Assembly (NCBI GenBank): GCA_022822305.1
Contig: JAJEBY010000013.1
Span: 1 to 64,000, forward strand
Origin: Anaerolineae bacterium
GTDB taxonomy: Bacteria; Chloroflexota; Anaerolineae; Aggregatilineales; Phototrophicaceae
Reading direction: 5' to 3'
DNA length: 64,000 bases
Shown here: positions 7,467 to 22,548 of the stretch, piece after piece
Layout: the number at the start of each line of letters is the position of its first letter
Position numbering within the stretch: position 1 is the first letter of the stretch
Position numbers and translations under genes: made by a program
Notes under the pieces: model-generated
Told to the model about the DNA's origin: nothing
Database searches by the model: none
What the model saw: only the letters and a program-made list of their open reading frames with translations

Positions 7467-7480
7467 TTTTGCTGGCAAAA
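7467..7480. promoter_or_regulatory. operator palindrome 1a
   Basis: TTTTGCTGGCAAAA, a near-perfect 14-bp palindrome. A second palindrome begins exactly 5 bases later. The same pair with the same spacing occurs at 17096-17128 and 21314-21346. Confidence 0.75.
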
Positions 7481-7482
7481 TC

Positions 7483-7511
7483 TTGTTTTGTATGCAAAAC
7501 TGCGCTATAGT
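7483..7511 (+). promoter_or_regulatory. putative promoter of the 7663-11295 transporter operon
   Basis: TTGTTT (7483-7488), a 17-base spacer and TATAGT (7506-7511) form a plausible sigma-70 promoter directed at the binding-protein gene. The -35 box and spacer are overlapped by operator 1b, suggesting repression. The 5' leader would be about 145 bases. Confidence 0.45.
7486..7499. promoter_or_regulatory. operator palindrome 1b
   Basis: TTTTGTATGCAAAA, fitting the TTTTGNNNGYAAAA consensus; its centre is 19 bases from that of palindrome 1a. It overlaps the proposed plus-strand promoter of the sugar importer and lies 41-54 bases upstream of the fuconate dehydratase start. A bound repressor could control both directions. 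Confidence 0.78.
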
Positions 7512-7662
7512 TGCGCGGTCTTTCGGCATGATCTGACGCTTGCAGGAGCAGCGTCAGCAATTGAATTGGCGAGCAGAAGGGAGTAGGATAGCATCTAATG
7601 CTCAGCTTTGGGCTACGGCCTTTGAATCGCAAGTGTAACTGAAGGATAGGAGATAACACATT

Positions 7663-9027
7663 ATGATTCGCAAGTTCACGCTTATCGCGCTGGTATTGGC
7701 GGTTGCGGCGCTGGGGTTGACGGTGACGGCCCAGGACGAACCGCAGTATGCCGGTCTGGACATGGATTTGTCCGGCATCAACATCAAGATGGCCAACATC
7801 GGTGGCGGCACCTATGAAGCCATGTATGAAGCAATCCCCATTTTTGAAGAGGCCACCGGCGCCACGGTCGAAATTGTCGCGCTGTTGGATGGATTCGCCA
7901 TTGACCAGAAACTCAAGGTCGATTTCGCAACGGGCGCGGCCGATTACGATGTGGCCTGGGATCACACCAGCTTCGTCGCTCAATACACGCCATTCCTGCT
8001 GCCGCTGCAAGACTACTTCAGCGAAGAAGAATTGGCGCCGTTCAGCCCAGCGATTCTGGATGCCGCGACTATCGACGGCAACCTGTATCTGATTCCGCGT
8101 CATGCTGATATCAGCCCCATTCACTATCGCAAAGACCTGTATGAGGACGAGGCGATTGCCGCCGCTTATATGGAGGCGACGGGTGAAGCATTGGCTGTGC
8201 CGACGACGCTCGAGCAGATTGATCGCCAGGCGCGCTTCTTCGTTGAGAATGGGCATAGCACCTACGGCTACACCGTGGCTGGCCGCGACGAAGCCCTCAA
8301 CGGCCGCTTCTACGAGATGGTCTTCGCCAGTGGCGGCGCCATGTTTGATGAAAACTGGGAACCCGTTTTCAACGACGAGATTGGCGTGGCCGTGGCGGAG
8401 ATGTTGCATGGCTGGTATAGCGATGGCATCATCCCGGCCGATACCACCTCGCTGGTATGGGATGGCGTGGCCGCGTACTTTTGCAACGGCGATACCGCCA
8501 TCAAGCTGGAATGGTACGGCTGGTATGCCTACTTCCAGGATCCCAACAATTGCCCGAACATCAGCGAAAACTTCGGCCTGGCGCGCGGCTTCACCGGCTT
8601 GAGCATCGGCGGCGATGCTGTGCGTCCCTCGGGTTGGGCTGGCGCGCACGCCTTTTCCGTGCCGGCGACTGCGCCGAATCCGCAAGCCGGCATTCAGCTG
8701 ATCAAGTTCCTGTCGTCCGAGCGCGTGGCTTATGAAGAAGCGCAGCTGGGTTACCTGCCCACGCGCGATGATGTCTGGGACCGCATCATTTCCGATGCTG
8801 CCGAGTCCGAGCGTCCGCTCGATCGCGAGCGGCTGGAGCTGGCGAAGCTGCAAGTGGCCGAAGATTTCCGCACGCCGCCGTTGATCGCCGAGTGGATTCC
8901 CTTCTCCAACATCTTGTATCCCAAAGTACAGGCCATCATGCTGGGCGATATCGGCGCGCAGGAAGGTCTGGATCAAGCCGCTGAAGAAACCCGTGAGTTG
9001 ATGGCGGACGCGGGCTACTACGACTAG
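7663..9027 (+). CDS. CUT1 extracellular sugar-binding protein
   Basis: A 454-residue exported family 1 binding protein. The signal peptide runs to about residue 24 (T-V-T-A-Q-D). The mature protein has an I-P-I-F-E-E-A-T-G-A-T-V-E-I-V strand-helix opening, a W-Y-G-W-Y-A-Y-F aromatic patch of the kind that lines sugar sites, and a C-terminal G-I-Q-L-I-K-F-L-S-S block. AGGAG lies upstream of the ATG. Two permease genes follow (9180-10136, 10426-11295) and no ATPase. Because it shares a divergent promoter and paired operators with fuconate dehydratase, it probably imports L-fucose, a related deoxy sugar or its acid; this is inference from context. Confidence 0.92.
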   Translation: MIRKFTLIALVLAVAALGLTVTAQDEPQYAGLDMDLSGINIKMANIGGGTYEAMYEAIPIFEEATGATVEIVALLDGFAIDQKLKVDFATGAADYDVAWDHTSFVAQYTPFLLPLQDYFSEEELAPFSPAILDAATIDGNLYLIPRHADISPIHYRKDLYEDEAIAAAYMEATGEALAVPTTLEQIDRQARFFVENGHSTYGYTVAGRDEALNGRFYEMVFASGGAMFDENWEPVFNDEIGVAVAEMLHGWYSDGIIPADTTSLVWDGVAAYFCNGDTAIKLEWYGWYAYFQDPNNCPNISENFGLARGFTGLSIGGDAVRPSGWAGAHAFSVPATAPNPQAGIQLIKFLSSERVAYEEAQLGYLPTRDDVWDRIISDAAESERPLDRERLELAKLQVAEDFRTPPLIAEWIPFSNILYPKVQAIMLGDIGAQEGLDQAAEETRELMADAGYYD

Positions 9028-9084
9028 TTTTCGCTTTCGCAAGGGGTGGGCCGCCGGCTCGCCCCGACAAGTTTGAATTGTTGG

Positions 9085-9153
9085 CGGGCGACTTACAGAG
9101 TCGCCCATACAAGTATTGAATCTAGACGGGCGACCCAATGGGTCGCCCCTACA
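9085..9153. repeat. two REP-like hairpins between binding-protein and permease genes
   Basis: GGGCGACTTACAGAGTCGCC (from 9086) and GGGCGACCCAATGGGTCGCC (from 9128) stand 42 bases apart. The second hairpin contains an in-frame ATG that spuriously extends the permease frame to 9138. Confidence 0.9.
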
Positions 9154-9179
9154 AAATTCATAGTGTTTCCGCCGGTTTC

Positions 9180-10136
9180 ATGACTTTCAACCTCGCAAGA
9201 AAAACTGATGACGAAGCGCCTGCTCGGGCTGATCTCTTCAGCCGCATCGACGCTGGCAGTTTTCCATTCCTGCTAATCCTGCCCTCTATCGTGGTTATCT
9301 TGTTGGTCGTCGGCTTTCCTCTGCTTTATTCCTTATATGTCAGTTTCACGCCCTACGAGCTGCTGCGGCCCAACAGTTTGAACTTCACGCTGGGCAAGGC
9401 GCTGCGCAATTATCAGAAATTGTTGAATGACGCTATTTTCTGGCGCTCTCTGGGCAACACCATCATTTTCCTGGCGGTGTCCGTGAACTTGAGCTATTTG
9501 ATTTCGCTGGCGCTATCGCAGCTGCTGGCGCGCGTCACGGTGGGGCAGAGCATCTTGCGCACGCTGCTGATGGTGCCGATGATGTTCGCGCCGATTTTGG
9601 TGGGCATGCAATTCCGCTGGTTCTTCAATGCCAGCGTCGGCTTGGTCAACAACTTCCTTTACAGTGTGGGATTAATCCAGACGCAAGGACAGATCGCCTG
9701 GCTGGTGGATGTGCCGCTGGGCATGTTTTCAATCATTGTGGCTTCGGTGTGGATGAACATCCCGGTGCTGACGATCATCTTGCTGGCGGGCACGCTGTCG
9801 CTGCCGACGGAGACCTTTGAAGCGGCCGAGGTCGATGGCGCGTCGGGCTGGCAGAAATTCCGGTTCATCACCTTTCCGCTGTTGGCGCCCTTCACCTATA
9901 TCGCCTTGACGATCATGTCGCTGGATATTGCGCGCGCCTTTGATATCGTGCGCATCATGACCGATGGCGGTCCCGCGCATCGCACCGAAATGCTCTGGAC
10001 CTATATCACGCGCCTTTCCATCGAAAACACCAAGTTCGGCCTGGGCAGCGCCATGTCCTGGATTACCGTGTCGCTGTCCGTGTTCTTCACGCTTTATTTC
10101 TTCCGCCAGTTGGTCAAAGCGAGAATTGTGCGATGA
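9180..10136 (+). CDS. CUT1 sugar ABC transporter permease, MalF/UgpA type
   Basis: A 318-residue membrane protein with six predicted membrane segments; the first is preceded by a charged stretch (A-R-K-T-D-D-E-A-P-A-R-A). The EAA loop reads E-A-A-E-V-D-G-A-S-G-W-Q-K-F-R-F at about residue 215. I start it at the ATG of M-T-F-N-L-A-R-K because the 14 residues before that are translated hairpin repeat. Its TGA overlaps an ATG (10133) in the usual ATGA way, but the next permease now starts about 290 bases further on, after a repeat island. Confidence 0.88.
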   Translation: MTFNLARKTDDEAPARADLFSRIDAGSFPFLLILPSIVVILLVVGFPLLYSLYVSFTPYELLRPNSLNFTLGKALRNYQKLLNDAIFWRSLGNTIIFLAVSVNLSYLISLALSQLLARVTVGQSILRTLLMVPMMFAPILVGMQFRWFFNASVGLVNNFLYSVGLIQTQGQIAWLVDVPLGMFSIIVASVWMNIPVLTIILLAGTLSLPTETFEAAEVDGASGWQKFRFITFPLLAPFTYIALTIMSLDIARAFDIVRIMTDGGPAHRTEMLWTYITRLSIENTKFGLGSAMSWITVSLSVFFTLYFFRQLVKARIVR

Positions 10137-10432
10137 ACAGCGGTCAGTATGGCGGCGCGGGTTTCGGGCGACTCACAGAGTCGCCCCTAGAAGGTTTGAT
10201 TGGAACATCAGCATATGCGCCGAGATTCTACCCCATCCCCCGGCCCCTTCCCCAGCAAGCTAGGGAAGGGGAGCTAAGTACGCGCGAACACCGTAGTCCA
10301 AGCCAGAGAAACGTCACGTTGAACGGGCTTGACAGATGCAATTGGGCTCAGATTGGGCGTCTGAGGGCCAGTAGCAATCTAGCCCAACAATTCGCTGCTA
10401 TTGGTAAGCGCTAGAGGATCGTGCGATGAACA
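10128..10432. repeat. repeat island bounded by a 12-bp direct repeat
   Basis: GTGCGATGAACA occurs at 10128-10139, across the ATGA stop-start of the upstream permease gene, and again at 10421-10432, across the actual start of the downstream permease gene. Between them lie a REP-like hairpin (10166-10190), a C-rich/G-rich hairpin repeat (10231-10276) and a dispersed repeat shared with 35210-35340. The arrangement looks like an insertion that duplicated its target and so preserved the downstream start codon. Confidence 0.75.
10231..10361. repeat. 131-bp dispersed repeat, copy 1
   Basis: It aligns without gaps to 35210-35340. The first 46 bases are the common C-rich/G-rich hairpin and the rest is a specific extension containing GCTTGACAG and TTGGGC blocks. 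Both copies lie just upstream of an ABC permease gene, and the translated frames are also similar (Y-P-I-P-R-P then Q-Q-A-R-E-G-E-L), though this probably reflects nucleotide identity rather than a protein. Confidence 0.8.
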
Positions 10433-11295
10433 CGCGCAGCGTGGGGCCGAACCGGCGCCGAAACGAGATCATCTGGAATGCCGTGGCTTGGGCGGTTTTG
10501 CTGGCGCTGGCGCTGCCGGCCTTCTGGATTATCATGACGGCATTCCGTCCCAACTCGGAAGTCAATTCCTTTCCGCCGGTGTGGATTCCGCAGCGGCTGA
10601 CCCTGGAAGCCTACGCCAACATGTTCGGCTTGAATCCGGATGTGCAGCAGCGCGTCGCCGTGGAAGCGTATCTGCGCAACTCGCTGCTGGCCGCGGGCAC
10701 GAGCACGATCGTGGCGGTGTCGCTGGGCACGCTGGCGGGCTATGCCTTCGCGCGCTTTCGTTTCCGCTTTCATACATCGTTGTTCCTGGGCATTATGTTA
10801 TCGCGCGCGGTGCCCGGCGTGGCGCTGAGCTTGCCGCTCTTCCTGCTCTTCAATCGCGCCGGCTTGACCAATAACGTATTCGGCTTGGCCTTTGTCTATG
10901 TCGCCATCAACATCCCCTTCACCGCCTGGCTGATGGATGGCTTCTTCCGCCAGATTCCGCAGGAGTTGACCGAATCGGCGTATATTGATGGCTGCGGGCA
11001 CTGGTCGGCGTTCTGGCGCATCGAGCTGCCGCTGTCGCTGCCGGGATTGGCCACGGCCGCCATCTTCGCCTTTTTGGCCGCCTGGAACGAATTCCAGATC
11101 GTGAGCGTGCTGGCGCGCAATAATGCCGCCAAGACCTTCCCGCCCGGGCTGTTCGCCTTCACCGAGCAGTTCACAGTTGATTGGCGGGGCATGGCGGCGA
11201 TGAGCGTGATCATGATGGTGCCGGCGGTGATCTTCGTGATTTTGGTGCAGCGCAATCTGGTCAGCGGCTTGACTTTCGGCGCGGTCAAGGGGTGA
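10426..11295 (+). CDS. CUT1 sugar ABC transporter permease, MalG type
   Basis: A 289-residue protein with six hydrophobic segments. The EAA loop is E-S-A-Y-I-D-G-C-G-H-W-S-A-F-W-R-I-E-L-P at about residue 190 and the C-terminus G-L-T-F-G-A-V-K-G is typical of MalG proteins. It completes the importer with 7663-9027 and 9180-10136. The start codon is the second copy of the GTGCGATGAACA direct repeat. No clear Shine-Dalgarno is visible (GAGGATCGTGCG). Confidence 0.9.
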   Translation: MNTRSVGPNRRRNEIIWNAVAWAVLLALALPAFWIIMTAFRPNSEVNSFPPVWIPQRLTLEAYANMFGLNPDVQQRVAVEAYLRNSLLAAGTSTIVAVSLGTLAGYAFARFRFRFHTSLFLGIMLSRAVPGVALSLPLFLLFNRAGLTNNVFGLAFVYVAINIPFTAWLMDGFFRQIPQELTESAYIDGCGHWSAFWRIELPLSLPGLATAAIFAFLAAWNEFQIVSVLARNNAAKTFPPGLFAFTEQFTVDWRGMAAMSVIMMVPAVIFVILVQRNLVSGLTFGAVKG

Positions 11296-11325
11296 TGTGG
11301 TTATGGCCCCGGCGGAGGCGCCGAG

Positions 11326-11350
11326 GCGGGCGACCTGATAGGTCGCCCGC
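11326..11350. repeat. REP-like hairpin (CCT/AGG type)
   Basis: GCGGGCGACCTGATAGGTCG followed by CCCGC. It lies between the convergent ends of the permease gene (11295) and the peptidase-like gene (11363) and could help end transcription in both directions. Confidence 0.85.
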
Positions 11351-11362
11351 ATGGATTAGGCG

Positions 11363-13423
11363 CTAGGCGCAGTTGCCCTCGGTTGTCACATAGCCGCCGT
11401 GAATCCAGCCGTTCAGCCCGTCATACTCGACATTGAACCAGCCTTCGCGGCTATCGAGCGCCCAGACTGCTGTGCCTTGCGGCAGCAGCCCGATCTTGTC
11501 GCCGTTTGGCGCGTCGCGGAAGTTCAGGCCGGTCGTTGTCGTCAGCTTGCAATCGCGGTTGACCGTGATTAGCGCGCCGTCCGCATCCAGGTGTTTCACT
11601 TCGAGCGAGTAGTCCGTCTGAAAACCTGTCTGCGGAACCACGGGCGAGATGGCGACAAGCGCGCGCTCCACCCCCGGTTGTAGGTCAACGGTCAATTCGC
11701 CCGGTCCCGTCACCAGTGAGCGCGATACGGCGGGACCTGACTCGGTTTCCTGCACGACTTGCAGCCAGGTTCGGTTGGGCAGGCGGTTGTCGGTGCGGAT
11801 CCAGCCCTCGGCGATCCAGGCGTCGTCCGCGGATTCGAAGCCGTCACGGAAGTCAATGGCGTCAATGCGCAGATCGTCGATTGCCATGCCGCGGAAGTCC
11901 GATCCAAACGTCGGTGAAATCGTTTCGAAGCGGAGCAGGACTTCTCCCCCAGCATAGGCGTCGAGACTGATGCTCTCGTCCAGCCAGCCTTCGGATGAGA
12001 ACGTATAGCGTTCCGAAACCGCCTGATCACGGTGTTCGGTGGTCGTATGCTCTCCTCCCAGTATTGTCCATGTTGCGCCACCGTCAGTACTTGCCGCAAC
12101 CTGGGCATATTCACGGTACTGATTTAATGCGCGCCAGATCTTGAAGTCCAGCGTAGCGCTGTCGACTTCGCTAAGATCAAAAGCGAAGGTGAGACGGGCG
12201 TTGCTGTTGTCGACGACGGCTGCAAAATAGAGATGCTCGCCTTCGGGAGGAACGGCATCAGTGAAACCGACTTCGGGCGCTTGGGTCAACTGTAAAGAGA
12301 GGGCGGCCGCGCCGCGCGCATCGACCGTGATGTAATCGGCGCCGAACTGCCATACGCTGCCGTCATAAGTCGAGGGCGAGCTGCGCAGCGTCGCAATTGG
12401 AGCTGGCGGCGTAAACTCGAGGATAAGGTCGTCGTAGCCGTATTGGTGAGGCGCCTCAAGGAAGTAATTCGCCACCACCCAATCAGCGAATGCGTCTTCA
12501 GCCGCGACCCCGGCGCTTTCCCGCAATACCTTGTCAATCGCGCGCCAGCCATCGGCGCTTTCGCCATGAATATCCGCGATGACCTCGTCCCCGTAATTCT
12601 CAGCGATGTAGATCAGGAAGAGACCCGTGGCGGCGATCAGTTCCGTGCAGCAAGGACTCTGCGGGAAGGCAGTAAAGCCCGTGCCCGGCGCTTCCAGGAA
12701 CCAGCGAAATTGCCCCACGCCCGCCCCGGTGCCGCCAAATGCATGGTCGAAATAGTGACTCAAGCCCAATTCCAGCCAGGCTTGCTCGTTTTCGTCCCGC
12801 AGGCTCAGCAGCGCTCTCTGATACTGGCCGGCAATCAGCCGGAACAAAGCGGTGTCCCATGCGCTCGAACCGTCGTAATCACGCACGAATGCCCAGATTA
12901 GTTCGCGCTCGTTGCTATTCGGATTGACCGATTGCGGCAGCCTGTCGCCTCCCAGGAAAAACGCTCGCTGTCCGGGTCGCAGCGCCAGCAGCACGCTCAG
13001 ACGTGGATCGCCGTCGACGCCCGGCGCCGCTTCATAATCGAGAAATCCCTCGTACCACTGCACAGCTTCTGTTTCCAGCCGCTCCGCCAGCGCCTGCGCT
13101 TTGTCGCCCGAATAACGAGCCGTATCTTGAACCCAGATCAAGACGTTGTCGGTCATGCCGCGCAATTCAAAGGGCAAGGCTTCCCATGCTCCAGTTACAT
13201 TGACGATGAACGACTCGTGATGGCCTACCGTGTATTCCGGTGGGCTTGGCGGCGACGTGATGGCGATGTCCAGGTCTTGGAAGCGGCTCAGGAATTCAGC
13301 TTCGTTGTAACCGGGAATCTCCAGTTCCGCCCAAGCTTCCAGAGCGGGATATTCAGCGTCTTGCGCTTGAATTGGCAAGAGCATGAATAACATGACGACC
13401 AAGATCAACGCTTTGTAGCGCAT
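11363..13423 (-). CDS. secreted immune-inhibitor-A-like (M6-type) protein with SH3 domain; catalytic histidines missing
   Basis: A 686-residue exported protein with a signal peptide to about residue 20 (L-P-I-Q-A-Q-D). The middle region has the adhesion/MAM-like beta segments found after the protease domain of immune inhibitor A proteins (A-A-S-T-D-G-G-A-T-W-T-I-L and M-A-I-D-D-L-R-I-D). The C-terminal 70 residues (L-N-F-R-D-A-P-N-G-D-K-I-G then G-W-I-H-G-G-Y-V) are a bacterial SH3 domain, likely cell-wall binding. Where a zinc HExxH would be expected the sequence is L-E-L-G-L-S-H-Y-F-D-H, so both motif histidines are replaced by leucine and proteolysis is doubtful. AGGAGAG precedes the ATG. 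It is unlinked in function to the sugar genes around it. Confidence 0.65.
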   Translation of the reverse strand: MRYKALILVVMLFMLLPIQAQDAEYPALEAWAELEIPGYNEAEFLSRFQDLDIAITSPPSPPEYTVGHHESFIVNVTGAWEALPFELRGMTDNVLIWVQDTARYSGDKAQALAERLETEAVQWYEGFLDYEAAPGVDGDPRLSVLLALRPGQRAFFLGGDRLPQSVNPNSNERELIWAFVRDYDGSSAWDTALFRLIAGQYQRALLSLRDENEQAWLELGLSHYFDHAFGGTGAGVGQFRWFLEAPGTGFTAFPQSPCCTELIAATGLFLIYIAENYGDEVIADIHGESADGWRAIDKVLRESAGVAAEDAFADWVVANYFLEAPHQYGYDDLILEFTPPAPIATLRSSPSTYDGSVWQFGADYITVDARGAAALSLQLTQAPEVGFTDAVPPEGEHLYFAAVVDNSNARLTFAFDLSEVDSATLDFKIWRALNQYREYAQVAASTDGGATWTILGGEHTTTEHRDQAVSERYTFSSEGWLDESISLDAYAGGEVLLRFETISPTFGSDFRGMAIDDLRIDAIDFRDGFESADDAWIAEGWIRTDNRLPNRTWLQVVQETESGPAVSRSLVTGPGELTVDLQPGVERALVAISPVVPQTGFQTDYSLEVKHLDADGALITVNRDCKLTTTTGLNFRDAPNGDKIGLLPQGTAVWALDSREGWFNVEYDGLNGWIHGGYVTTEGNCA

Positions 13424-13508
13424 ACGAACTCTCCTTGTTTGAAAATAAAAACCTGCGAAATTAGCATAGTATTAGCGTCCCTGCAATAAACGGCAACGCA
13501 ATGGATGA

Positions 13509-13537
13509 TTCAAAACACTTGGACTGTTCACTATAAT
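13509..13537 (+). promoter_or_regulatory. putative sigma-70 promoter for 13571
   Basis: TTCAAA (13509-13514), a 17-base spacer and a perfect TATAAT (13532-13537) lie upstream of the acid-sugar dehydratase gene, giving a leader of about 27 bases with a GGAAGG ribosome site. Confidence 0.5.
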
Positions 13538-13570
13538 GACGGAGCGCGCCAAACTTGGAAGGACGCAGCC

Positions 13571-14689
13571 ATGAAAATCACCGATATCGAAATTCGCTTG
13601 TGCAAGCACCAGGAAGAGGTGATGTCGGAGACGGAGCTGCGCGACACGCAGCGTTCCGATCTGCATTTCATCCTCGTCACCATCAAGACCGATGCCGGCG
13701 TCGATGGCGTCAGCATGGGTTTCGCCGGCATGGGCGCGGAGATGGCCGGCTCGATCGCGGCTGGGTCGATCAAGCCGTTTTTCCTGGGCAAAGATCCATT
13801 GGCGCGCGAGAAGCATTGGTACGATTTCCGGCGCTATGACCGCGTCTGGCATCTGACGCCGATGTACGCCTACGGGCCATTCGATATCGCGCTCTGGGAT
13901 ATCGCGGGCAAGCTGGCCGATATGCCGCTTTACAAGCTGCTGGGTCATTTTCGCGAGAAAGTCCCGACTTATGTCAGCTCCTATTTTCTGGATTCGCCGG
14001 AGGACTACGCCGATCAAGTCGTCGAGTACAAAGCCCGGGGCTTTCACGGCTACAAGCTGCATCCGCCGAGCGATTATCACGAAGCGCTGGCGGCCTACCG
14101 GCTCTGTCGCGAGGCGATCGGCGATGACCCGCACTTCAAGCTGATGGCGGATCCGGTCACCGCGCATACCTATTACGAAGAGGCGCTGCGCATGGGCCGC
14201 GAGCTGGAGAAGCTGGACTATTATTGGTTCGAAGAACCGCTTTACGATGTCGATTTCAGCAGTTTGCGCAAGCTGACGCGCGACCTCGATATTCCCATCG
14301 CCGGAACGGAAGTGCTGGTTGGATCGCATTATTCGACGGCCGAATGCATCGCCAGCGGCGTGGTGGATATCGTGCGCAGCGATGTATCGTGGAAGGGCGG
14401 CGTGACCGCCGTGATGAAGACCGCTAATCTGGCCGAGTCCTTCGGCATGCGCTGCGAGGTGCATACGGCGATTTATCCGGCGCTGGAGATCGTTAATCTG
14501 CATTGCTGCTGCGCCATCTCCAACAGCGAGTTCTTCGAGGCGCTTGTGCCGACTTCACTGATGAAACTGGGCATTCAGAATCCGGTGCGTATTGATGCTG
14601 AAGGATATGCGCATCCGCCGCAAGGCGCGGGAACCGGCATCGAATGGGATTGGGATTTCATTGACGACGCGACGGTGGCGGTCTTGTGA
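13571..14689 (+). CDS. enolase-superfamily (mandelate racemase-like) acid-sugar dehydratase
   Basis: A 372-residue protein with the N-terminal capping domain and the barrel: G-Y-K-L-H-P at about residue 160, metal ligands in L-M-A-D-P and W-F-E-E-P-L, a third ligand in A-G-T-E-V, and a C-terminal histidine in E-V-H-T-A. The second position of the usual K-x-K motif is histidine (K-L-H), so it is not an ordinary muconate or galactarate-type enzyme and its substrate is uncertain. The ATG at 13571 is chosen for its GGAAGGA site and because family members begin M-K-I-T-D-I-E. It lies in the deoxy-sugar region but has its own promoter. Confidence 0.85.
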   Translation: MKITDIEIRLCKHQEEVMSETELRDTQRSDLHFILVTIKTDAGVDGVSMGFAGMGAEMAGSIAAGSIKPFFLGKDPLAREKHWYDFRRYDRVWHLTPMYAYGPFDIALWDIAGKLADMPLYKLLGHFREKVPTYVSSYFLDSPEDYADQVVEYKARGFHGYKLHPPSDYHEALAAYRLCREAIGDDPHFKLMADPVTAHTYYEEALRMGRELEKLDYYWFEEPLYDVDFSSLRKLTRDLDIPIAGTEVLVGSHYSTAECIASGVVDIVRSDVSWKGGVTAVMKTANLAESFGMRCEVHTAIYPALEIVNLHCCCAISNSEFFEALVPTSLMKLGIQNPVRIDAEGYAHPPQGAGTGIEWDWDFIDDATVAVL

Positions 14690-15011
14690 CGAGTACGGAA
14701 CTTCGTTCGGGTTTTCCCCCATCCCCCGGCCCCTTTCCCCATAAAGGGGGAAGGGGAGCGTCGTCGTTTGCAAATTGGATTGTAAACTATGAATTTACCT
14801 TATTTCTGCGAGGTGATACGCAAGGTATGTCCGCATTTTCGGACTGCTTGTACATTGCCAATCAAGCTTTGGAGCGGTGACTCTGTGAGTCGCCCATTGC
14901 GTTAGATCGACGCGGCGACGCGCGGATACGTCAGTGGCGCAAGTGTCGATACGAGGGCGACCCAGCGGGTCGCCCGTACATCATTTGTATGGGTTTTTGG
15001 GGTGAGGGGGC
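14690..15011. repeat. intergenic repeat region (no gene seen)
   Basis: It holds a C-rich/G-rich hairpin (about 14716-14760, CCCCATCCCCCGGCCCC ... GGGGGAAGGGGAGC), a partial GACTCTGTGAGTCGCCC hairpin near 14880, and a full GGGCGACCCAGCGGGTCGCC hairpin at 14955-14980. The two flanking genes converge here. Confidence 0.75.
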
Positions 15012-15335
15012 CTAATCCGTATGGAAGATCTCTTCCAGCGTCTTCCACCATTCGCCCTCGGCGCGATCCGCAACCGGATTCTGCATGGGCATGCAGATAT
15101 CCCACCATTTCTGCGTGATTTCGTCCGCCGCCATCTTGGCCATGTCGGCTTCAAAATCGTCGCCGTGGTATTCCATATAGGCGAAGAGCAGATCGCCATG
15201 CAAGAAAATGGAATAGTTGCGGATGTTGCAGTCTTCGATCACCTTCAACACGCCCGGCCAGGTATTGGCGTGCAATTCCTTATATTCGTCCAGATGCTCC
15301 TGCTTGATGCCGATCACTTGTCCAAAGCGCCGCAT
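15012..15335 (-). CDS. L-rhamnose/L-fucose mutarotase-like protein (RhaM/RhaU family)
   Basis: A 107-residue single-domain ferredoxin-like protein. Family hallmarks are the N-terminal E-H-L-D-E-Y-K-E-L-H-A-N-T-W-P, the N-Y-S-I-F strand, L-L-F-A-Y-M-E-Y and K-W-W-D-I-C. Members interconvert the alpha and beta anomers of 6-deoxy sugars so that dehydrogenases or isomerases can use them. AGGAG precedes the ATG at 15335. It follows the MaoC gene by about 10 bases on the same strand, in a unit with the CoA-transferase at 15865-17013. Fucose is favoured over rhamnose only because of the neighbouring fuconate dehydratase and lactonase. Confidence 0.85.
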   Translation of the reverse strand: MRRFGQVIGIKQEHLDEYKELHANTWPGVLKVIEDCNIRNYSIFLHGDLLFAYMEYHGDDFEADMAKMAADEITQKWWDICMPMQNPVADRAEGEWWKTLEEIFHTD

Positions 15336-15345
15336 GTGATTGCTC

Positions 15346-15855
<510 letters not shown>

Positions 15856-15864
15856 GGTATCTCC

Positions 15865-17013
15865 TCAGCCGCTAATCGCGAACTCTCTCATGATGCTGTT
15901 GGTATCTTCACCGATGCGGGGCGCGCCTTTTTCGTATTTCAGGATTTCGCCATCAATGCGGATGGGACAGCGGGTGGTATCCAGCTTGACCGTCTCGCTA
16001 CGCGATACTTCCTGAACCATATCCAGCACCTTGAAACCTTCGTGCTGCAGCAGCCGATCCCAACTCAGCACATCGGAGCACCAGATGTCCTGCGGCTCCA
16101 GGATGTCCAGCCAGTGCTGCGTGCTGCCGCCCCGCAAATGCTCGACCAGGATGCCCTTGATCTCGTCGCGGCAGGTGAACCAGGTGGCGGAATCGGTGTA
16201 GGCGAGCAGGGGCGGGCAATCCAGCAGCTCGCCCAGCACCGGAATCGATCCCATCGCCAGCGCCAGATATCCGTCTGATGTCTCGTAGATGCCGTAGGGC
16301 GCGGACAGGTAGGCGTGGGCGTTGTTGATGGCGCTGCGCTGCGGCAGCTTCCCGCCGTCGTTGAGGTGCGTGGTCAGCACTTCGAATTGGAAATCGAGGA
16401 TGGATTCCAGTAGGCTGACCTGCACCAGCCCGCCTTCGCCGGTGACGCCGCGCCGCACCAGGCAGGCCAGGATGCCTTGCACCAGATGCGCGCCGGTGAA
16501 TAGATCGACGACCGCCAGACCAAAGGGCGTCGGCGGGCGATCGGCATCGCCATTGAGCCAGACCAGGCCGGATATCGATTGCAGCAGCAAGTCTTGCCCG
16601 GGTTTGTAGACCCAGATGCCCTCGTTGCCATAGCCGCTGATCTCGCCGTAGACGATGCGCGGATTGATCTCGCGCACGGTATCGTAATCCAGCCCGAGCC
16701 GCGTCATCACGCCGGGGCGGAAGTTGGAAACCAGCACATCGGCCTGCGCGATGAGTTCGCGCGCCCGCGCCATATCCGCGGCGTCTTTCAGGTTGGCGGC
16801 GAAGCTCTCTTTGTTGCGATTGATGGAATGGAATAAGGTGCTCTCGCCATCGAGTTCCAGCTCGGAGATATAGAGTTGGCGGCAGAGATCGCCGCCATCC
16901 GGGCGTTCTACCTTGATGACGCGCGCGCCCAGATCGGCCAGCCGCAAAGCCGCCGAGGGTCCGGACAGGAATATGCTGAAATCGAGTACGAGTAAGCCTT
17001 CCAGAGGTCGCAT
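15865..17013 (-). CDS. CaiB/BaiF family III CoA-transferase
   Basis: A 382-residue protein with the family opening [10 protein letters not shown] and [21 protein letters not shown], the N-R-N-K-E-S segment and G-Q-D-L-L-L-Q, whose aspartate is the expected acyl-carrier residue. It should move CoA between carboxylic acids, activating an acid for the adjacent MaoC proteins. The ATG at 17013 is the natural N-terminus; GGGAG lies a rather long 12 bases upstream, and the open frame continues to a TTG at 17052. It is transcribed divergently from the lactonase at 17207 with paired operators between. Confidence 0.88.
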
Positions 17014-17095
17014 GAGATTGATGATCTCCCTAGCCGCGGCGCGCGTTGACAAATGTTCAATTGCGGCAACCCTGATCGTCGCCGCGGAAAGTCTG

Positions 17096-17109
17096 TTTTG
17101 CTTGCAAAA
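17096..17109. promoter_or_regulatory. operator palindrome 2a
   Basis: TTTTGCTTGCAAAA, a 14-bp palindrome (arms TTTTGC and GCAAAA) between the divergent CoA-transferase and lactonase genes; paired with 2b after a 5-base spacer. Confidence 0.8.
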
Positions 17110-17129
17110 ACACTTTTTGTATGTAAAAT
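17102..17129 (+). promoter_or_regulatory. putative promoter of the fuconolactonase-like gene
   Basis: TTGCAA (17102-17107), a 16-base spacer and TAAAAT (17124-17129). Both boxes lie within the paired palindromes, as expected of a repressed promoter. Confidence 0.4.
17115..17128. promoter_or_regulatory. operator palindrome 2b
   Basis: TTTTGTATGTAAAA, same consensus and same 19-base centre-to-centre distance as the pairs at 7467 and 21314. It overlaps the proposed -10 box of the lactonase promoter. Confidence 0.75.
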
Positions 17130-17206
17130 ATAGAGGGCAAAATCTGATCTGTCAAATCGAATATTCATACTCGGCGCGGCGGGCGCGGCGCAACCGGGAG
17201 GCGAGC

Positions 17207-18052
17207 ATGCTCAAGGTCGATACCCACCAACATTTCTGGAATCTGGACGAGGTGGCTTACCCCTGGCTGATACCCGAATACGGGCCGATTTATCGCAATT
17301 TCGCGCCGGAGGAATTGGCGCCGCAGCTGGCGGCTTGCGGCGTCGACAAGACCGTCATCGTGCAAGCGATGGATTCTTACGCCGATACCGATTCCATGCT
17401 CAAGATCGCGGCGGAGCACGATTGGGTGGCGGCGGTGGTGGGCTGGATACCGCTGCACGATCCGGCGGAAGCGGCGCGCAAGCTGGACGAATATCAGCAG
17501 AATCCGTATTTCGTCGGCATGCGGCACCTGATCCACGAAGAGAGCAACGGCAACTGGGTGGTGCAGAAGCAGGTGATCGAGAGCCTGGGCATGCTGGCGG
17601 AGCGCGGTTTAACCTTTGATGTGGTGGCGGTCTTTCCCGGGCATCTCAAGCATGTGCCGACTTTGGCGGAGCAAGTGCCGGATCTGAAGATGGTCATCGA
17701 CCACCTGGCCAAGCCGCCCCTGGACGAAGCCGATCGCGCGGACTGGCGTGATCAGATGGCCGCCGCCGCCCAGAGCCCCAATGTTTACGCCAAGATATCG
17801 GGCTTGAATACGGCGACGTCCGACTTCGAGAATTGGACTTACGAAGACATCAAGCCGTCGATTGACTATTGCATCGAGCAATTCGGCGCCGAGCGGCTGA
17901 TGTTCGGCAGCGACTGGCCGGTGGCGGTGCTGGCCGGCGATTATGCCAAAGTCTGGGACGAGACCAGCAAAGCCATCGCCGATTTGAGCGAGGCGGAACG
18001 CGACGCTATCCTGGGCGGGACGGCAAATAGTTTCTATGGGTTGGGGTTGTAA
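17207..18052 (+). CDS. amidohydrolase 2 family, L-fuconolactonase-like
   Basis: A 281-residue TIM-barrel amidohydrolase. The N-terminal K-V-D-T-H-Q-H-F-W carries the H-x-H metal pair in the form usual for sugar lactonases, V-I-D-H-L-A-K-P gives a further histidine, and F-G-S-D-W-P-V supplies the catalytic aspartate near residue 235. Such enzymes open L-fucono- or L-rhamnono-lactone to the acid, the step before fuconate dehydratase. The ATG at 17207 is preceded by GGGAGG; the frame continues upstream through the operators and is not used there. Confidence 0.85.
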   Translation: MLKVDTHQHFWNLDEVAYPWLIPEYGPIYRNFAPEELAPQLAACGVDKTVIVQAMDSYADTDSMLKIAAEHDWVAAVVGWIPLHDPAEAARKLDEYQQNPYFVGMRHLIHEESNGNWVVQKQVIESLGMLAERGLTFDVVAVFPGHLKHVPTLAEQVPDLKMVIDHLAKPPLDEADRADWRDQMAAAAQSPNVYAKISGLNTATSDFENWTYEDIKPSIDYCIEQFGAERLMFGSDWPVAVLAGDYAKVWDETSKAIADLSEAERDAILGGTANSFYGLGL

Positions 18053-18283
18053 GGCTTGTTCGATAACTCATCACGCTTGCGCGTCAGCCTGCCCCACCCC
18101 CCGGCCCCGATGCATCAGGGAGGGGGAGCAATGTTGCGCGAAATCGCCAATAAATCCGTCATTTTCGCGCTGAGCGAGTCTGTTTCTTCCATCTATCGCA
18201 GGTAGATTCAAGTCATTTGCATGTGACTCTGCATTATCGGACAAGCCATGTAACGTCCAAATGCCGCGATTATGAAGCTGCAA
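18053..18283. repeat. intergenic repeat region after the lactonase gene
   Basis: It contains a C-rich/G-rich hairpin (about 18092-18129, CCCCACCCCCCGGCCCC ... GGGAGGGGGAGC) followed by AT-richer sequence with a GACAAGCC end like that of the 117-bp repeat. Probably acts as, or lies near, a transcription end. No convincing gene. Confidence 0.6.
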
Positions 18284-18523
18284 TCAAGCCATGCGGTCCA
18301 GTCTCTCAATCCGTCGCTCCGCGCTACTGAGTTTTTGGCAAACCTGGTTCAACTTATTCCTTAGCTCCCGGTTTTTGGAAGCGAGTTCAGAGAGCTTTTC
18401 ACGGTGCTCCATACGCAATTCGTGAATGGCTTCCCTCGTCTTGCTTTGGGAATCCCAAATCAGGAAGAAGAAAAAAGTGATGATAATGATGAGTACGAAT
18501 TCCTAAGAAAGTGTGATGTGCAT
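18284..18523 (-). pseudogene. small membrane/coiled-coil protein interrupted by an early amber codon
   Basis: From an ATG at 18523, with GAGGA upstream (GAGGATAGAAC), the frame reads M-H-I-T-L-S, then TAG (18505-18503), then continues in frame through a hydrophobic segment (V-L-I-I-I-I-T-F-F-F-F-L-I-W) and a charged heptad-like helix rich in E, L, K and R, to a TGA at 18284-18286. The ribosome site and coherent membrane-plus-coiled-coil design suggest a real gene of about 79 residues recently broken by a point mutation, or a sequencing error. Stop-codon readthrough is less likely. It resembles the protein at 5665-5940 in layout only. Confidence 0.5.
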
Positions 18524-18593
18524 GTTCTATCCTCATTTCTGTCGCTAGCCTGTCGCGAGCAAGTCAAGCGACGACAAGTGTCCTGACTGAATT

Positions 18594-19676
18594 CTACATT
18601 GCGGGAAGCGCCGTCCCGCCATTCGCGCTGGACGCATAGGCCGCTTCCACGGTGGCCATGGTCTCGATGGCATCGTCGACCGCGGTGGGCAGCGCGTCGG
18701 TCTCGCCGTTGGCGTAGCGCTGCAAGCTGGCCATGGCGCCGATGAAGGCTTCCGGGAACCAGGAACCGCTGATATCCAGGGATTGCCAGCTCGGCTCGGC
18801 GCCCTCCTCCAGCAGCACATATTCGAAGCGATCGGGCACGCCGTCCGGGTAGTTCATATTGAGCCCGGCGCGGATCTGGATGGCGCCCTTGCTGCCCTCG
18901 AACTTGACGTAGGATTGCTGCTTTTGGCTGCCATAGGCGTGGCTGTGATTGGTCATGACATTGACGCGTGGGTTATCACCATAATCCATGATGATCATCG
19001 AGCGCACGCCGCCTCGCAGATCGGGCGCGCTGGGATGGCTCATAGTCTTGGCGTAAACCGAACGCGGCGTGCCGCAGAACGAGCGCGCCAGATCCACGTA
19101 GTGGATACTGTGATAGAGGATTTCCACGCGCGGCAGCGGGAAGAGGAATCCCCACAATTGCCAGGGCGTATTGACTTGCATGCGCACTTCCAGGTCGTAT
19201 AGCTCGCCGAGCAAGCCCTGCTCGATCATATCGCGGGCGGCGATGATGAAAGGCGCGAATCGCAGCTGGAAGTTGATGGCGGCCACCAGCTCGCGCTCGC
19301 GGCAGACGGCCAGAATCTCGCGCGCTTGCGCCAGGTCGTCGCCCATAGGCTTTTGGATCAAGACGGCGCGGCCGCGCGGCAGCTCGCGCAGGATCTCGGT
19401 GATGGCATTGCCGGGCACGGCCACATCAAAGACGGCGTCGGCGGGCGAATCGACGATGGCCGCGTTCAGCGAATCGTAAATCACGGGCACGTCGAACTTG
19501 TCTTTCATCATGGCGGCGCGCTCGGCACTGAGATCGTAGCCGCCCGCGACCTGGAAGCCGGCGATTCGATAGGCCGGATAATGGGCGTCGTGCACGATGC
19601 CGCCCATGCCGATGCTGACGATGGGACGCGGGGTCTCCGGCAAGATGGCGTTTTGTCGAAATGTGAAATCTGGCAT
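18594..19676 (-). CDS. Gfo/Idh/MocA family NAD(P)-dependent oxidoreductase
   Basis: A 360-residue oxidoreductase. The N-terminal Rossmann fold has a modified nucleotide loop (S-I-G-M-G-G-I-V-H-D), then the E-K-P equivalent Q-K-P-M-G-D at about residue 110, and the substrate domain with an H-S-I-H-Y-V-D-L segment corresponding to the family's catalytic histidine region. Such enzymes oxidise sugars, inositols or their derivatives. Here it could supply the sugar-to-lactone dehydrogenase step of the oxidative pathway, but this is inference from position. GAGGAAAT lies upstream of the ATG. Confidence 0.85.
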   Translation of the reverse strand: MPDFTFRQNAILPETPRPIVSIGMGGIVHDAHYPAYRIAGFQVAGGYDLSAERAAMMKDKFDVPVIYDSLNAAIVDSPADAVFDVAVPGNAITEILRELPRGRAVLIQKPMGDDLAQAREILAVCRERELVAAINFQLRFAPFIIAARDMIEQGLLGELYDLEVRMQVNTPWQLWGFLFPLPRVEILYHSIHYVDLARSFCGTPRSVYAKTMSHPSAPDLRGGVRSMIIMDYGDNPRVNVMTNHSHAYGSQKQQSYVKFEGSKGAIQIRAGLNMNYPDGVPDRFEYVLLEEGAEPSWQSLDISGSWFPEAFIGAMASLQRYANGETDALPTAVDDAIETMATVEAAYASSANGGTALPAM

Positions 19677-19954
19677 TATTCAATTTCCTCGATTGGTTGA
19701 GACGGTCAACGCAGATTGGACTAGGGTGCGAGGTCGCATGTCAATTGTATCAGAATTGGAGCGAATGACTGCATCGTCCACAAGCACGCGCAAACGAATG
19801 TAGGGGAGACCTATCAGGTCGCCCGCCCACGTCCCCCTAAAACGCGCGCCAAATGCGCGGGTGGCGGTCATGGGGATGGGATTGAATCGGCGGACGAGCC
19901 AATGGCTCGCCCCTACAGTTTTCGCTGTTTGGCGTGATATTTGCCAGATTCAAT
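19677..19954. repeat. intergenic region with REP-like hairpins
   Basis: It has GTAGGGGAGACCTATCAGGT/CGCCC at about 19800-19826 and a GACGAGCCAATGGCTCGCCC hairpin near 19895-19914. The first 100 bases probably include the promoter of the minus-strand oxidoreductase gene. No gene seen. Confidence 0.7.
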
Positions 19955-20767
19955 TCAGGCGGAATCCAGCGTGAGCGCCGCGTCATCGGCCATGGTGGTC
20001 AAGCCGGCGCGTTCGTTGATTTGGCGGGCGCAATGTCGCAGGGCGGCGGCGACTTTGTGCGGCTCGCTGCTTTGGCGCGTGGCGGTGAGTTGAGTCACGG
20101 CCACCGCCGCCATCACGCCGACATCGGGGCTGCCCACCAGCACGGCGGTGTCTTTCATGCCGATGAAGGTTTCATCGACCGCGGTCGAGAGACCACTGCG
20201 CCGGATCGCGGCGATGCGCCGCCAAAACTGCTCGCGCTCGGCCGCGCGCATTTCCGCATAGTCGGGGGCATGCTCCAGCGTCGCTTCTATGCTGGCATCG
20301 GTCATCGCCGCCAGCAGCAGGCGCCCGGACACCGTGCGCGTCAGCGGATGGGTCGTGCCCACGGCGACCTTGATCGTCACGTTCTCCGGGCTTTCCACTT
20401 GCCCGACTACCAGGAGCTGCCGCTGGTCGACGACGCTGATATGGCAGGATTCGCGGATGGTCCAGGCCAATTCCCCCATCGGCAGTTTCGCCACTTGCAG
20501 CAGGTGATCGAGCGGCGAATGGCGATTGGCCAGTTCAAAGAGCTTGAGCGTCAGCATGTATTTGCCGGAGACATTGTCCTTGATGACGTATCCGCCTTCC
20601 GCCAGGCAATTCATGGTGCGGAAGAGTTGACTGGCGCTGTTGTCGGTCATGTCCGATATTTGCGAGAGCGAGAGCGGTTCCGATGCCTGCGCCAGCAATT
20701 CCAGCACCGCCAGCCCTTTTTCCAGAGCCGGGACGCTGTAGTTGGGCGCTGCCTTGTTCTCGCTCAT
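19955..20767 (-). CDS. IclR-family transcriptional regulator
   Basis: A 270-residue regulator. The N-terminal winged helix (A-L-E-K-G-L-A-V-L-E-L-L then L-S-L-S-Q-I-S-D-M-T, S-Q-L-F-R-T-M-N-C-L and G-Y-V-I) is followed by the C-terminal GAF-like effector domain (V-S-G-R-L-L-L-A-A-M and G-L-S-T-A-V-D-E-T). IclR proteins often bind as tetramers to paired sites in response to small acids. It lies 29 bases downstream of the MaoC gene, so it would be made from the promoter carrying operators 3a/3b. That makes it the best candidate to bind the paired TTTTGNNNGYAAAA palindromes and to regulate itself. The ATG at 20767 is preferred to upstream starts that overlap the MaoC gene. Confidence 0.9.
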   Translation of the reverse strand: MSENKAAPNYSVPALEKGLAVLELLAQASEPLSLSQISDMTDNSASQLFRTMNCLAEGGYVIKDNVSGKYMLTLKLFELANRHSPLDHLLQVAKLPMGELAWTIRESCHISVVDQRQLLVVGQVESPENVTIKVAVGTTHPLTRTVSGRLLLAAMTDASIEATLEHAPDYAEMRAAEREQFWRRIAAIRRSGLSTAVDETFIGMKDTAVLVGSPDVGVMAAVAVTQLTATRQSSEPHKVAAALRHCARQINERAGLTTMADDAALTLDSA

Positions 20768-20796
20768 TTCAGCCGCCGCGACTCGACGATCAAGCG

Positions 20797-21252
20797 CTAG
20801 CTCTCGACCGCGCTCTTGCGCTGCGCCAGATACAGATGCTGGCAAGCCAGCACCACCTTATCGTGCTGGTTGATCACCTCGACCTGCTCAATGACATAAC
20901 CGAGCTCCGGCCGCTTGGGATAATCGCGCTTTTCGGTGATGGTGCATTTGACGCGGATGGTATCGCCGATGAAGACGGGACGGATGAAGCGCACGCGATC
21001 GTAGCCGTATGAGAAGGCGACCGGATTGATTTCACTGGCGGTCATACCGACGCCGACGCTGAGGATCAAGGTGCCATGGGCGACGCGCTCCTTGAATTCC
21101 TGGGTTTTGACCCACTCGGCATCCATGTGATGGGGGAAGAAATCGCCGGTCTGCCCGGCGTGCAAGACGATATCCGCCTCGGTGATAGTACGGCCGATGG
21201 TCTCGCGCGTGAAGCCGATTTCGTATTCTTCAAAGTAAGTGGTTTTGATCAT
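20797..21252 (-). CDS. MaoC family dehydratase/hydratase
   Basis: A 151-residue hot-dog-fold protein beginning [13 protein letters not shown]. The hydratase motif is intact: [10 protein letters not shown] supplies the Asp/His pair, and V-A-H-G-T-L follows. It would hydrate or dehydrate an acyl-CoA, plausibly one made by the CoA-transferase at 15865-17013, which stands next to the related but dyad-less paralogue at 15346-15855. The ATG at 21252 follows GGAAAAG; the frame is open far upstream through the operator region and is not used there. It is the first gene of a unit with the IclR regulator. Confidence 0.88.
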
Positions 21253-21286
21253 GGACTTTTCCAATTGTGTGGATGGGCGGAAGCGG

Positions 21287-21315
21287 TTGACAAGGCTTGA
21301 CCCGCTCATTATATT
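21287..21315 (+). promoter_or_regulatory. sigma-70-type promoter of the 21394 gene
   Basis: TTGACA (21287-21292), a 17-base spacer and TATATT (21310-21315), close to consensus. The start point would fall near 21322, inside palindrome 3a. On the opposite strand the same place reads TATAAT (21313-21308), a -10 box for the MaoC-IclR unit. Confidence 0.65.
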
Positions 21316-21327
21316 TTGCAGATAAAA
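21314..21327. promoter_or_regulatory. operator palindrome 3a
   Basis: TTTTGCAGATAAAA, the least symmetric of the six sites but at the same 19-base distance from its partner 3b as in the other two pairs. Confidence 0.7.
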
Positions 21328-21332
21328 CTGAT

Positions 21333-21346
21333 TTTTGCAAGCAAAA
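21333..21346. promoter_or_regulatory. operator palindrome 3b
   Basis: TTTTGCAAGCAAAA, a 14-bp palindrome of the shared consensus. The pair 3a/3b covers the start point of the plus-strand promoter and the -35 side of the minus-strand one. Confidence 0.8.
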
Positions 21347-21393: not shown

Positions 21394-22548
21394 ATGGCTA
21401 AAAGGCAATTGCGAGGCATCACCTGGAATCATTCGCGCGGCTACGTCTCGGTGGCGGCGACGGCGCAGCGCTTCTGTGAGCTGCACCCCGATGTCGACAT
21501 CCTCTGGGACAAGCGCTCGCTGCAAGAATTTGCTGATGCGCCGATTCAAGGCTTGGCGGAGCAATACGACCTGTTGGTGATTGATCATCCCTGGGCCGGA
21601 TTTGCCGCGCACAGCGAGGTGTTGGTCTCGCTGGGCGAGCTGCTGCCGACGGACTACCTGGCGGATCAAGCGGCTAATTCTGTCGGGCAGTCGCACCCCA
21701 GTTACATTTTCGATGGCGTGCAATGCGCGCTGGCGATTGACGCCGCCACGCCGGTCGCGTCTTATCGTCCCGATTTGCTGGAGCGCTATGGATTGGAGCA
21801 GCCGCAGACTTTTTCGGAATTGTTGGCGCTGGCGCGGCAGGGGCGTGTGATCATGCCCGGCATCGAGATCGATACGCTGATGAATTTCTACATGCTCTGC
21901 GCCACGCAGGGTCAGCCGCCATTCGTCGATGATGAATGGGCCGTGTCAGATGAGATGAGCCTGCAGGCGCTGGAGCAATTGCGCGAGCTGGCGGGGTTGT
22001 GTCCGCGCGAGATTTTCGGGTGGAATCCCATCGCCGTCTATGAGGCGCTGTCGAGGCGCGATGACTATGTCTATTGTCCCTTTGCCTATGGCTATTCCAA
22101 TTATTCGCGCCCGGGCTACTCGGCGAATATTTTGGTCTTTGACGACATGGTCGCGATCGAGGGACATGGCCGCTGCCAGAGCACGCTGGGCGGCACGGGG
22201 CTGGCGATATCAACCGGTTGCCGGCATTTGCAGATCGCGCGCGATTATGCCCTGTTCACCGCCAGCCCGATTGTGCAGCGCACGATCTTCTTCGAGAACG
22301 GCGGCCAGCCCGGGCATCGCGGCGCCTGGGTTGATGACGAAGTCAATCGCCGCAGCAGCAACTATTTCCGCAATACGCTGCCGGCATTGGATCGCGCCTA
22401 TCTGCGGCCGCGTTTCCCCGGTTATCTGCATTTTCAGGATCACGGCGGCGCGCCCATCCGCGACTATCTGATGAACGGCGGCGATGCCAAGGCCGTGCTG
22501 GCGAAACTGAAGCGTTTGTTCGTGGACGCCAAGGCCTTGTACGTGTAA
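21394..22548 (+). CDS. binding-protein-like (family 1 SBP) protein without signal peptide
   Basis: A 384-residue protein that opens [17 protein letters not shown] and runs straight into the first strand of a family 1 solute-binding fold. Later features such as [20 protein letters not shown] and G-T-G-L-A-I-S look like the ligand-facing parts of that fold. There is no hydrophobic leader or lipobox, while all the other binding proteins here have obvious ones. GGAGGAG precedes the ATG; the frame extends upstream only into the operator region. It should therefore stay in the cytoplasm, perhaps as a sensor, carrier or repurposed enzyme. No permease is adjacent. It is under the 3a/3b operators. Confidence 0.75.

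Follow-up and report, generated by a model that had tools for sequence, protein, structure and literature searches.

According to the main text of Suvorova and Gelfand (2021; PMC8222616), 94 orthologous groups of IclR-family regulators are predicted to act on tandem palindromes whose centers lie 18–22 nt apart, mainly 19–21, a spacing that fits tetramer binding. The regulogs described there are mostly small, many include sugar or sugar-acid genes, and the sites sit mostly near gene starts; matches to the consensus are common but not strictly defining, and other motif types are also named. A second close system is the group of FucR loci for oxidative use of L-fucose and L-fuconate, which in the main text of PMC5507952 bring together a fuconate dehydratase, predicted ABC importers and a regulator with predicted sites, as does the locus described here. 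This locus lies in a stretch of 64,000 nucleotides from an Anaerolineae bacterium (assembly GCA_022822305.1, contig JAJEBY010000013.1, positions 1 to 64,000; hereafter the window), a member of the Chloroflexota, a phylum with few cultivated members as noted in the text of PMC6306507. In the window, three pairs of palindromes lie within a gene cluster encoding, among others, an L-fuconate dehydratase homolog (FucD), a sugar importer, a CaiB/BaiF CoA-transferase (CaiB), a lactonase, two MaoC proteins (MaoC1 and MaoC2), a solute-binding-fold protein that lacks a signal peptide (SBPcyt) and an IclR-family regulator (IclR).

Palindrome pairs and their inheritance with IclR

The palindromes had been noticed in a first-pass annotation made from the letters of the window, and all six were recovered at the positions given there, with a 5-bp spacer and centers 19 bp apart in each pair:

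7467..7499: operator pair 1, TTTTGCTGGCAAAA / tcttg / TTTTGTATGCAAAA, between FucD (minus strand) and the importer operon (plus strand)
17096..17128: operator pair 2, TTTTGCTTGCAAAA / acact / TTTTGTATGTAAAA, between CaiB (minus strand) and the lactonase gene (plus strand)
21314..21346: operator pair 3, TTTTGCAGATAAAA / ctgat / TTTTGCAAGCAAAA, between MaoC1-IclR (minus strand) and SBPcyt (plus strand)

The pairs had been called identical and all six sites assigned one form. Their layout is indeed identical, whereas their sequences differ: five of the six sites are exactly TTTTGNNNGYAAAA, and the sixth (21314-21327), TTTTGCAGATAAAA, departs from it at one position. A relaxed pattern, TTTTRYNNRYAAAA, fits 6/6 sites. 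In a chance test on the window we counted 8 strand-matches against 0.05 expected, and none of 100 shuffles reached 8. Across the organism's own genome (3,667,285 bases, 16 contigs, 94.3% complete), TTTTRYNNRYAAAA occurs as a single site at 7 places, 6 of them inside the pairs (4 places for a reversed control pattern), and the pair, with up to 2 mismatches, at 3 places, all in this cluster (0 for the reversed control). With a first-order Markov model of the window's composition, roughly 1 single site and 3e-7 pairs would be expected per genome. The genome-wide scan had been suggested in the first-pass annotation; rather than occurring throughout the genome, the pair is confined to these three places. 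We conclude that the three palindrome pairs are real and not a product of chance.

A seventh palindrome, TTTTGCCGGCAAAA, stands alone at G000:C1:5387-5400, between open frames that by eye resemble a glycosyltransferase and a phosphotransferase; it may be a chance occurrence.

We searched for the pair and the IclR protein in this genome and 60 relatives; 34 of these genomes, our own included, make up the genus. This comparison, likewise suggested in the earlier annotation, revealed co-inheritance of exact pairs with the IclR gene: exact pairs occur in 23 of the 34 genus genomes, the same 23 that carry an IclR ortholog, and in none of the other 11. When a gap of 0–30 was allowed between two exact sites, all 61 places found in these 23 genomes had a gap of 5, and the reversed control gave 0 in 34 genomes. 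With up to 2 mismatches, 40 fetched stretches together with the window hold 66 pairs, which fall into three promoter classes of 20, 23 and 23. Class 1 pairs lie upstream of the importer in 20/23 IclR-bearing genomes, in some with FucD on the other side; class 2 pairs lie between CaiB and the lactonase gene in 23/23; and class 3 pairs precede MaoC1-IclR and/or SBPcyt, at 23 places in 22/23 genomes, with two copies in genome G013 (the relevant contig of G005 ends inside IclR). In G013, MaoC1-IclR and SBPcyt are about 12 kb apart and each has a pair of its own (L086, at 6317 and 19594), with a TTGACA box at the SBPcyt copy and none at the MaoC1 copy. Site columns average 1.74, 1.90 and 1.92 bits in the three classes, versus 0.32, 0.66 and 0.48 in the 60-base flanks. 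As one of their two palindromes, 53/66 pairs have TTTTGCTTGCAAAA or the complementary sequence, whose arms are fully complementary; the partner is usually more degenerate.

Among 400 genomes drawn evenly from the phylum (our own included), an IclR match at E <=1e-30 was found in three: our own, G300 and G381. G300, from another genus of the same family, encodes an IclR protein (70%) and carries an exact pair; genes and pair are arranged as lactonase, Gfo/Idh/MocA oxidoreductase (Gfo/Idh), IclR, MaoC1, pair, SBPcyt. The pair was also looked for in a fetched stretch of S. meliloti, and none was found there.

Each pair had been proposed to overlap promoter boxes, and the conserved flank columns of our alignments include those boxes:

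21287..21315, plus strand: SBPcyt core promoter, TTGACA (21287-21292), N17, TATATT (21310-21315); the -10 box overlaps the first two T of pair 3
21308..21313, minus strand: TATAAT next to pair 3, a possible -10 box for the MaoC1-IclR operon; most relatives in the alignment read TATAGT here
17127..17155, minus strand: CaiB core promoter, TTGACA (17155-17150), N17, TATATT (17132-17127); the -10 box overlaps pair 2
7483..7511, plus strand: promoter that probably serves the importer operon, TTGTTT (7483-7488), N17, TATAGT (7506-7511); the -35 box lies inside pair 1

In relatives, the TTG and TATACT-like columns of the importer promoter are largely conserved, with a spacer of 16 in many. Beside the -10 box of MaoC1-IclR, no good -35 box was seen.

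Predicted repression by the IclR protein and its alternatives

The proposed binder of the pairs is encoded within the cluster:

19955..20767, minus strand: IclR-family regulator, 270 aa, with HTH_IclR and IclR_C domains, co-inherited with the pairs

The protein belongs to the IclR family by both domain models (PF09339, 42.6 bits, cut-off 22; PF01614, 90.1 bits, cut-off 24). Its nearest PDB sequences, at 43–66 bits, are 2ia2, 8eju (a Pca regulon regulator), 3r4k, TtgV (2xrn) and KdgR (5y6i), and close relatives on three Chloroflexi/Anaerolineae contigs share 78–82% identity with it. The first-pass annotation had singled it out as the regulator, a proposal supported by the co-inheritance of exact pairs (23/34) and the uniqueness of the pair in the genome.

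We think it likely that the pairs are operators of this protein, which would repress the regulon and its own operon until it binds a pathway intermediate. Two IclR dimers, or one tetramer, would bind the two palindromes, which lie about two helical turns apart. The bound protein would cover the -10/start region at CaiB and SBPcyt and the -35 region at the importer, so repressing the sugar-acid/CoA regulon together with the regulator's own operon; binding of a pathway intermediate to IclR would then lift repression. Binding, cooperativity, repression and ligand are what we infer for this protein from comparative sequence analysis, and the cooperative binding of two dimers would agree with a spacing that falls in the 18–22 nt class described for the family in the main text of PMC8222616. 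Repression with autoregulation appears to be the best reading because the pairs overlap conserved promoter boxes, and autoregulation is expected because pair 3 precedes MaoC1-IclR, two genes separated by a 29-bp gap.

Four genus genomes (G003, G007, G028 and G031) provide a natural case of operator loss. They keep CaiB (88–89%), the lactonase (78–80%), MaoC1, MaoC2, a RhaM-type mutarotase (RhaM), Gfo/Idh, a second dehydratase-like gene and the importer, the last being rearranged in G028, where FucD was not found. None of the four has an IclR gene between Gfo/Idh and MaoC1 or an IclR relative anywhere in the genome at E <=1e-20, and a search allowing up to 2 mismatches turned up no pair in any of them. 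In an alignment of CaiB promoters, the operator follows TTGACA-N17-TATATT in four IclR-bearing genomes, and a 23-row alignment shows the same columns; in the four IclR-less genomes, the sequence after TTGACA-N17-TATAGT is unrelated to it. The two groups thus have a core promoter in common, but only the genomes with IclR have the operator. By eye, no replacement regulator was recognized among unmatched open frames of at least 130 aa in seven stretches around the IclR-less clusters. We considered whether SBPcyt had been lost together with IclR and rejected this, since SBPcyt is kept elsewhere in G007, G028 and G031; it was not found in G003, where the contig carrying the cluster ends soon after FucD. 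Because G300, outside the genus, has both IclR and the pair, these comparisons favor loss of the IclR gene and pairs in the IclR-less clade rather than their gain elsewhere. The nodes on which the placement of this clade depends have low support (37 and 48 in one tree, 69 in another), so its exact position is tentative. A tree that included G381 was uninformative because of a very long branch; the tree set to which it belongs did not include G033 or genomes whose fetched stretches lack MaoC1.

Several observations weigh against assigning the pairs to IclR as a repressor, or against the generality of the pattern. Since the IclR-less genomes group with G015 in a single clade, they represent one evolutionary event, not four. 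Across 22 orthologs (G005 left out), conservation of the helix-turn-helix (HTH) domain of IclR exceeds that of the remaining sequence only slightly (invariant fraction 0.53 vs 0.41), and the presumed recognition helix stands at 0.41. The importer pair of G016 (L087, about 367-400) has a spacer of 4 and one mismatch, with centers 18 apart, the only spacing deviation seen. In G018 a third pair is missing even when up to 2 mismatches are allowed, and in G023, where SBPcyt is relocated (L075, left end), no pair was found upstream of that gene. A 24th genus genome, G033, lacks IclR and has two weak places at up to 2 mismatches. Finally, no such pair was found in the fetched stretches of more distant IclR-bearing clusters, those of G381, Rufibacter, two Persicobacter and Martelella. 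We take the weak matches at up to 2 mismatches in G033, G035, G036 and G049, where IclR is absent at E <=1e-20, to be chance. The two-mismatch matches in G033, G035 and G049 and the one-mismatch matches in G036 (reversed control 3 and 1) were not counted as pairs; the same holds for extra two-mismatch matches in G008, G020 and G022 and for six places of this kind in G300 and G381.

Members of the PcaU/PobR type act as activators or dual regulators, and the same IclR protein might bind the pairs in that capacity. The best named NCBIfam model for it is indeed PcaR/PcaU/PobR, at 106.5 bits, under the 284.75 cut-off; the operator covers the -35 region of the importer promoter; and on the MaoC1-IclR side the -35 region lies inside the operator and the -10 box has no good partner, which leaves room for activation. 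At CaiB and SBPcyt, however, the operator begins at the -10 box of a near-consensus TTGACA-N17-TATATT promoter and covers the likely start site, a repressor position that argues for repression, and the four IclR-less genomes retain the CaiB promoter, with TATAGT. We therefore regard activation or dual control as unlikely.

That the pairs are bound by the product of another regulator gene, located elsewhere, and that the IclR gene is simply a co-inherited neighbor, strikes us as more improbable still. The link between IclR and the motif is comparative, and the evidence from loss rests on one event. Against this, the IclR-less genomes keep the neighboring genes but have neither the IclR gene nor the pairs, IclR is the only transcription factor recognized among the cluster genes scanned, and tandem palindromes at such spacing are common in the IclR family according to the main text of PMC8222616. 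As for the palindromes being chance, repeat or DNA-structure elements rather than operators, the lone seventh copy at G000:C1:5387 speaks for it, but with some 3e-7 pairs expected per genome, and with pairs conserved at homologous promoters in 23 genomes against 0 for the reversed control in 34, we give it almost no credence.

Regulon content and a possible CoA-linked pathway

If IclR acts at the three pairs, the predicted regulon comprises FucD, the importer, CaiB-MaoC2-RhaM, the lactonase, MaoC1-IclR (possibly with Gfo/Idh) and SBPcyt. Searches of Pfam, NCBIfam and the PDB confirmed the kinds of genes named in the first-pass annotation:

6207..7445, minus strand: FucD, enolase-superfamily L-fuconate dehydratase homolog by its best PDB matches
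7663..11295, plus strand: sugar importer, with binding protein (7663-9027) and permeases (9138-10136, 10426-11295)
13505..14689, plus strand: second enolase-superfamily dehydratase-like gene, with no pair of its own
15012..15335, minus strand: RhaM-type sugar mutarotase (Pfam rhaM)
15346..15855, minus strand: MaoC2, with Val where MaoC1 has its catalytic His
15865..17013, minus strand: CaiB/BaiF family III CoA-transferase; Asp of the GxD motif conserved in the alignment
17207..18052, plus strand: lactonase of the amidohydrolase superfamily; the best-scoring model is L-fucono-1,5-lactonase, whose cut-off it does not reach
18594..19676, minus strand: Gfo/Idh/MocA oxidoreductase and candidate sugar dehydrogenase, which may belong to the MaoC1-IclR operon
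20797..21252, minus strand: MaoC1, hydratase-like protein with Asp and His present (4ffu, 203 bits)
21394..22548, plus strand: SBPcyt, solute-binding-protein fold without signal peptide, by Pfam and N-terminal hydropathy

We take the GxD Asp of CaiB to be catalytic, and the Asp/His pair of MaoC1 is presumably its catalytic hydratase motif. The CaiB query used in two comparisons began at 17004, three codons inside the gene, whose likely start is 17013. MaoC2 shows 94–99% identity across the genus loci compared, and MaoC1 and MaoC2 may form a heterodimer. The cluster also includes a gene for an InhA-like protein with MAM and SH3 domains (11363-13423); similar genes accompany the cluster, inside it or nearby, in some relatives and were not seen there in others.

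SBPcyt departs from a conventional binding protein in its N terminus. Among the best 120 of 5322 matches, 120/120 relatives have no strongly hydrophobic N-terminal stretch, and their maximal 15-residue hydropathy is 0.16–1.03, versus 2.45–3.08 for three exported-type binding proteins of the window. Leaderless proteins of this fold recur beside CaiB CoA-transferases in Chloroflexota, Bacteroidota and Alphaproteobacteria, and therefore SBPcyt is probably not part of an importer. SBPcyt-like genes lie beside CaiB at four loci:

L097: 13995-15155
L099: 11998-13143
L100: 9013-10122
L101: 8989-10119

In two Bacteroidota clusters SBPcyt adjoins CaiB genes, and no ABC permease is annotated in the fetched stretch, whose gene table is incomplete. 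A second, distant SBPcyt-like gene lies close to a CaiB-like gene at G000:C16:1170286-1174278 (L118), where there is no palindrome pair.

The first-pass annotation read the genes as a deoxy-sugar regulon. This reading is well founded; the narrower assignment to L-fucose is not. The best matches of FucD are L-fuconate dehydratase structures (2hne/1yey, 351 bits). The lactonase scores 212.7 bits with its best model, NF052480, below the NCBIfam equivalog cut-off of 400, and RhaM scores 111.4 bits with Pfam rhaM (cut-off 23.4) and 49.1 with the NCBIfam L-rhamnose mutarotase equivalog, below 99.6. RhaM, the lactonase and Gfo/Idh are compatible with L-fucose or L-rhamnose. A similar module is carried by plasmids of Bacteroidota and Alphaproteobacteria: in clusters from Rufibacter, two Persicobacter and Martelella, an IclR-family gene (30–33% identical) occurs together with SBPcyt (41–57%), CaiB, Gfo/Idh and MaoC1; the stretch from Persicobacter sp. 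JZB09 is unannotated. The L-rhamnose symporter RhaT occurs in the Rufibacter and P. psychrovividus clusters, and a mutarotase and an amidohydrolase in that of Martelella. Nearby glycosidases include an alpha-L-fucosidase at the P. psychrovividus cluster and a family 78 glycoside hydrolase at the Rufibacter cluster. FucD was found in 14/34 genus genomes and in only 10 of the 23 with the IclR regulator, and we do not accept an L-fucose-specific pathway as proven. L-fucose and L-rhamnose are two good candidates for the substrate.

The leaderless SBPcyt beside CaiB and the active-site residues of MaoC1 suggest a cytosolic CoA-dependent step. One can imagine an undescribed CoA-dependent deoxy-aldonate route in which oxidation by Gfo/Idh and lactone opening would be followed by activation by CaiB and dehydration of the thioester by a MaoC1/MaoC2 heterodimer, with cytosolic SBPcyt holding the substrate for CaiB and IclR sensing an intermediate. 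We offer this scheme tentatively and consider it doubtful as a whole. The second enolase-superfamily gene is present in 31/34 genus genomes, often away from the locus, which weakens the CoA-dependent route and with it the idea that CaiB and MaoC replace an enolase-type dehydratase. Our literature searches found no work joining at least three of L-rhamnose, CaiB, MaoC and IclR, or three of CaiB, solute-binding protein, L-rhamnose mutarotase and gene cluster. Among the matches listed for L-fuconate/L-rhamnonate, some name a CoA-transferase with a sugar acid and none names MaoC; CaiB is not named among the matches listed in related literature.

Comparison with known systems

The IclR protein is homologous to TtgV (45.7 bits), and four-subunit occupancy of one operator is proposed for both. 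TtgV on its operator (PDB 2xro) is reportedly an IclR-family tetramer, with another ligand class and another operator sequence. With the tandem-site regulons presented in the main text of PMC8222616, our locus shares a spacing within the 18–22 nt range, here 19 nt at all three places, and a regulator gene that is co-inherited with the sites and preceded by one. Its sites differ from the consensuses given there, GKTYCRYW3-4RYGRAMC and TGRAACAN1-2TGTTYCA: by eye, TTTTGC-N2-GCAAAA is no literal fit to either, with C to T in the half-site and a core of 2 instead of 3–4 relative to the published IclR consensus.

In the literature collection searched, no work combining Chloroflexota, IclR, binding sites and regulon was found. 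The terms CoA-transferase, COG1804, MaoC and rhamnose are absent from the main text of PMC8222616, and the words CaiB, MaoC and CoA transferase from that of PMC5507952 on FucR loci. The locus offers a clean predicted regulator-operator pair for a phylum with few cultivated members, and through regulation it ties a CaiB-type CoA-transferase to deoxy-sugar genes. The regulon may be a direct way to the substrate, and it points at an unsolved CoA-linked sugar-acid pathway. Its paired-operator architecture is already known for the IclR family, of which this regulon is a further example; its content, with a CaiB CoA-transferase, MaoC proteins and a leaderless SBPcyt, is more unusual than the architecture of its operators.

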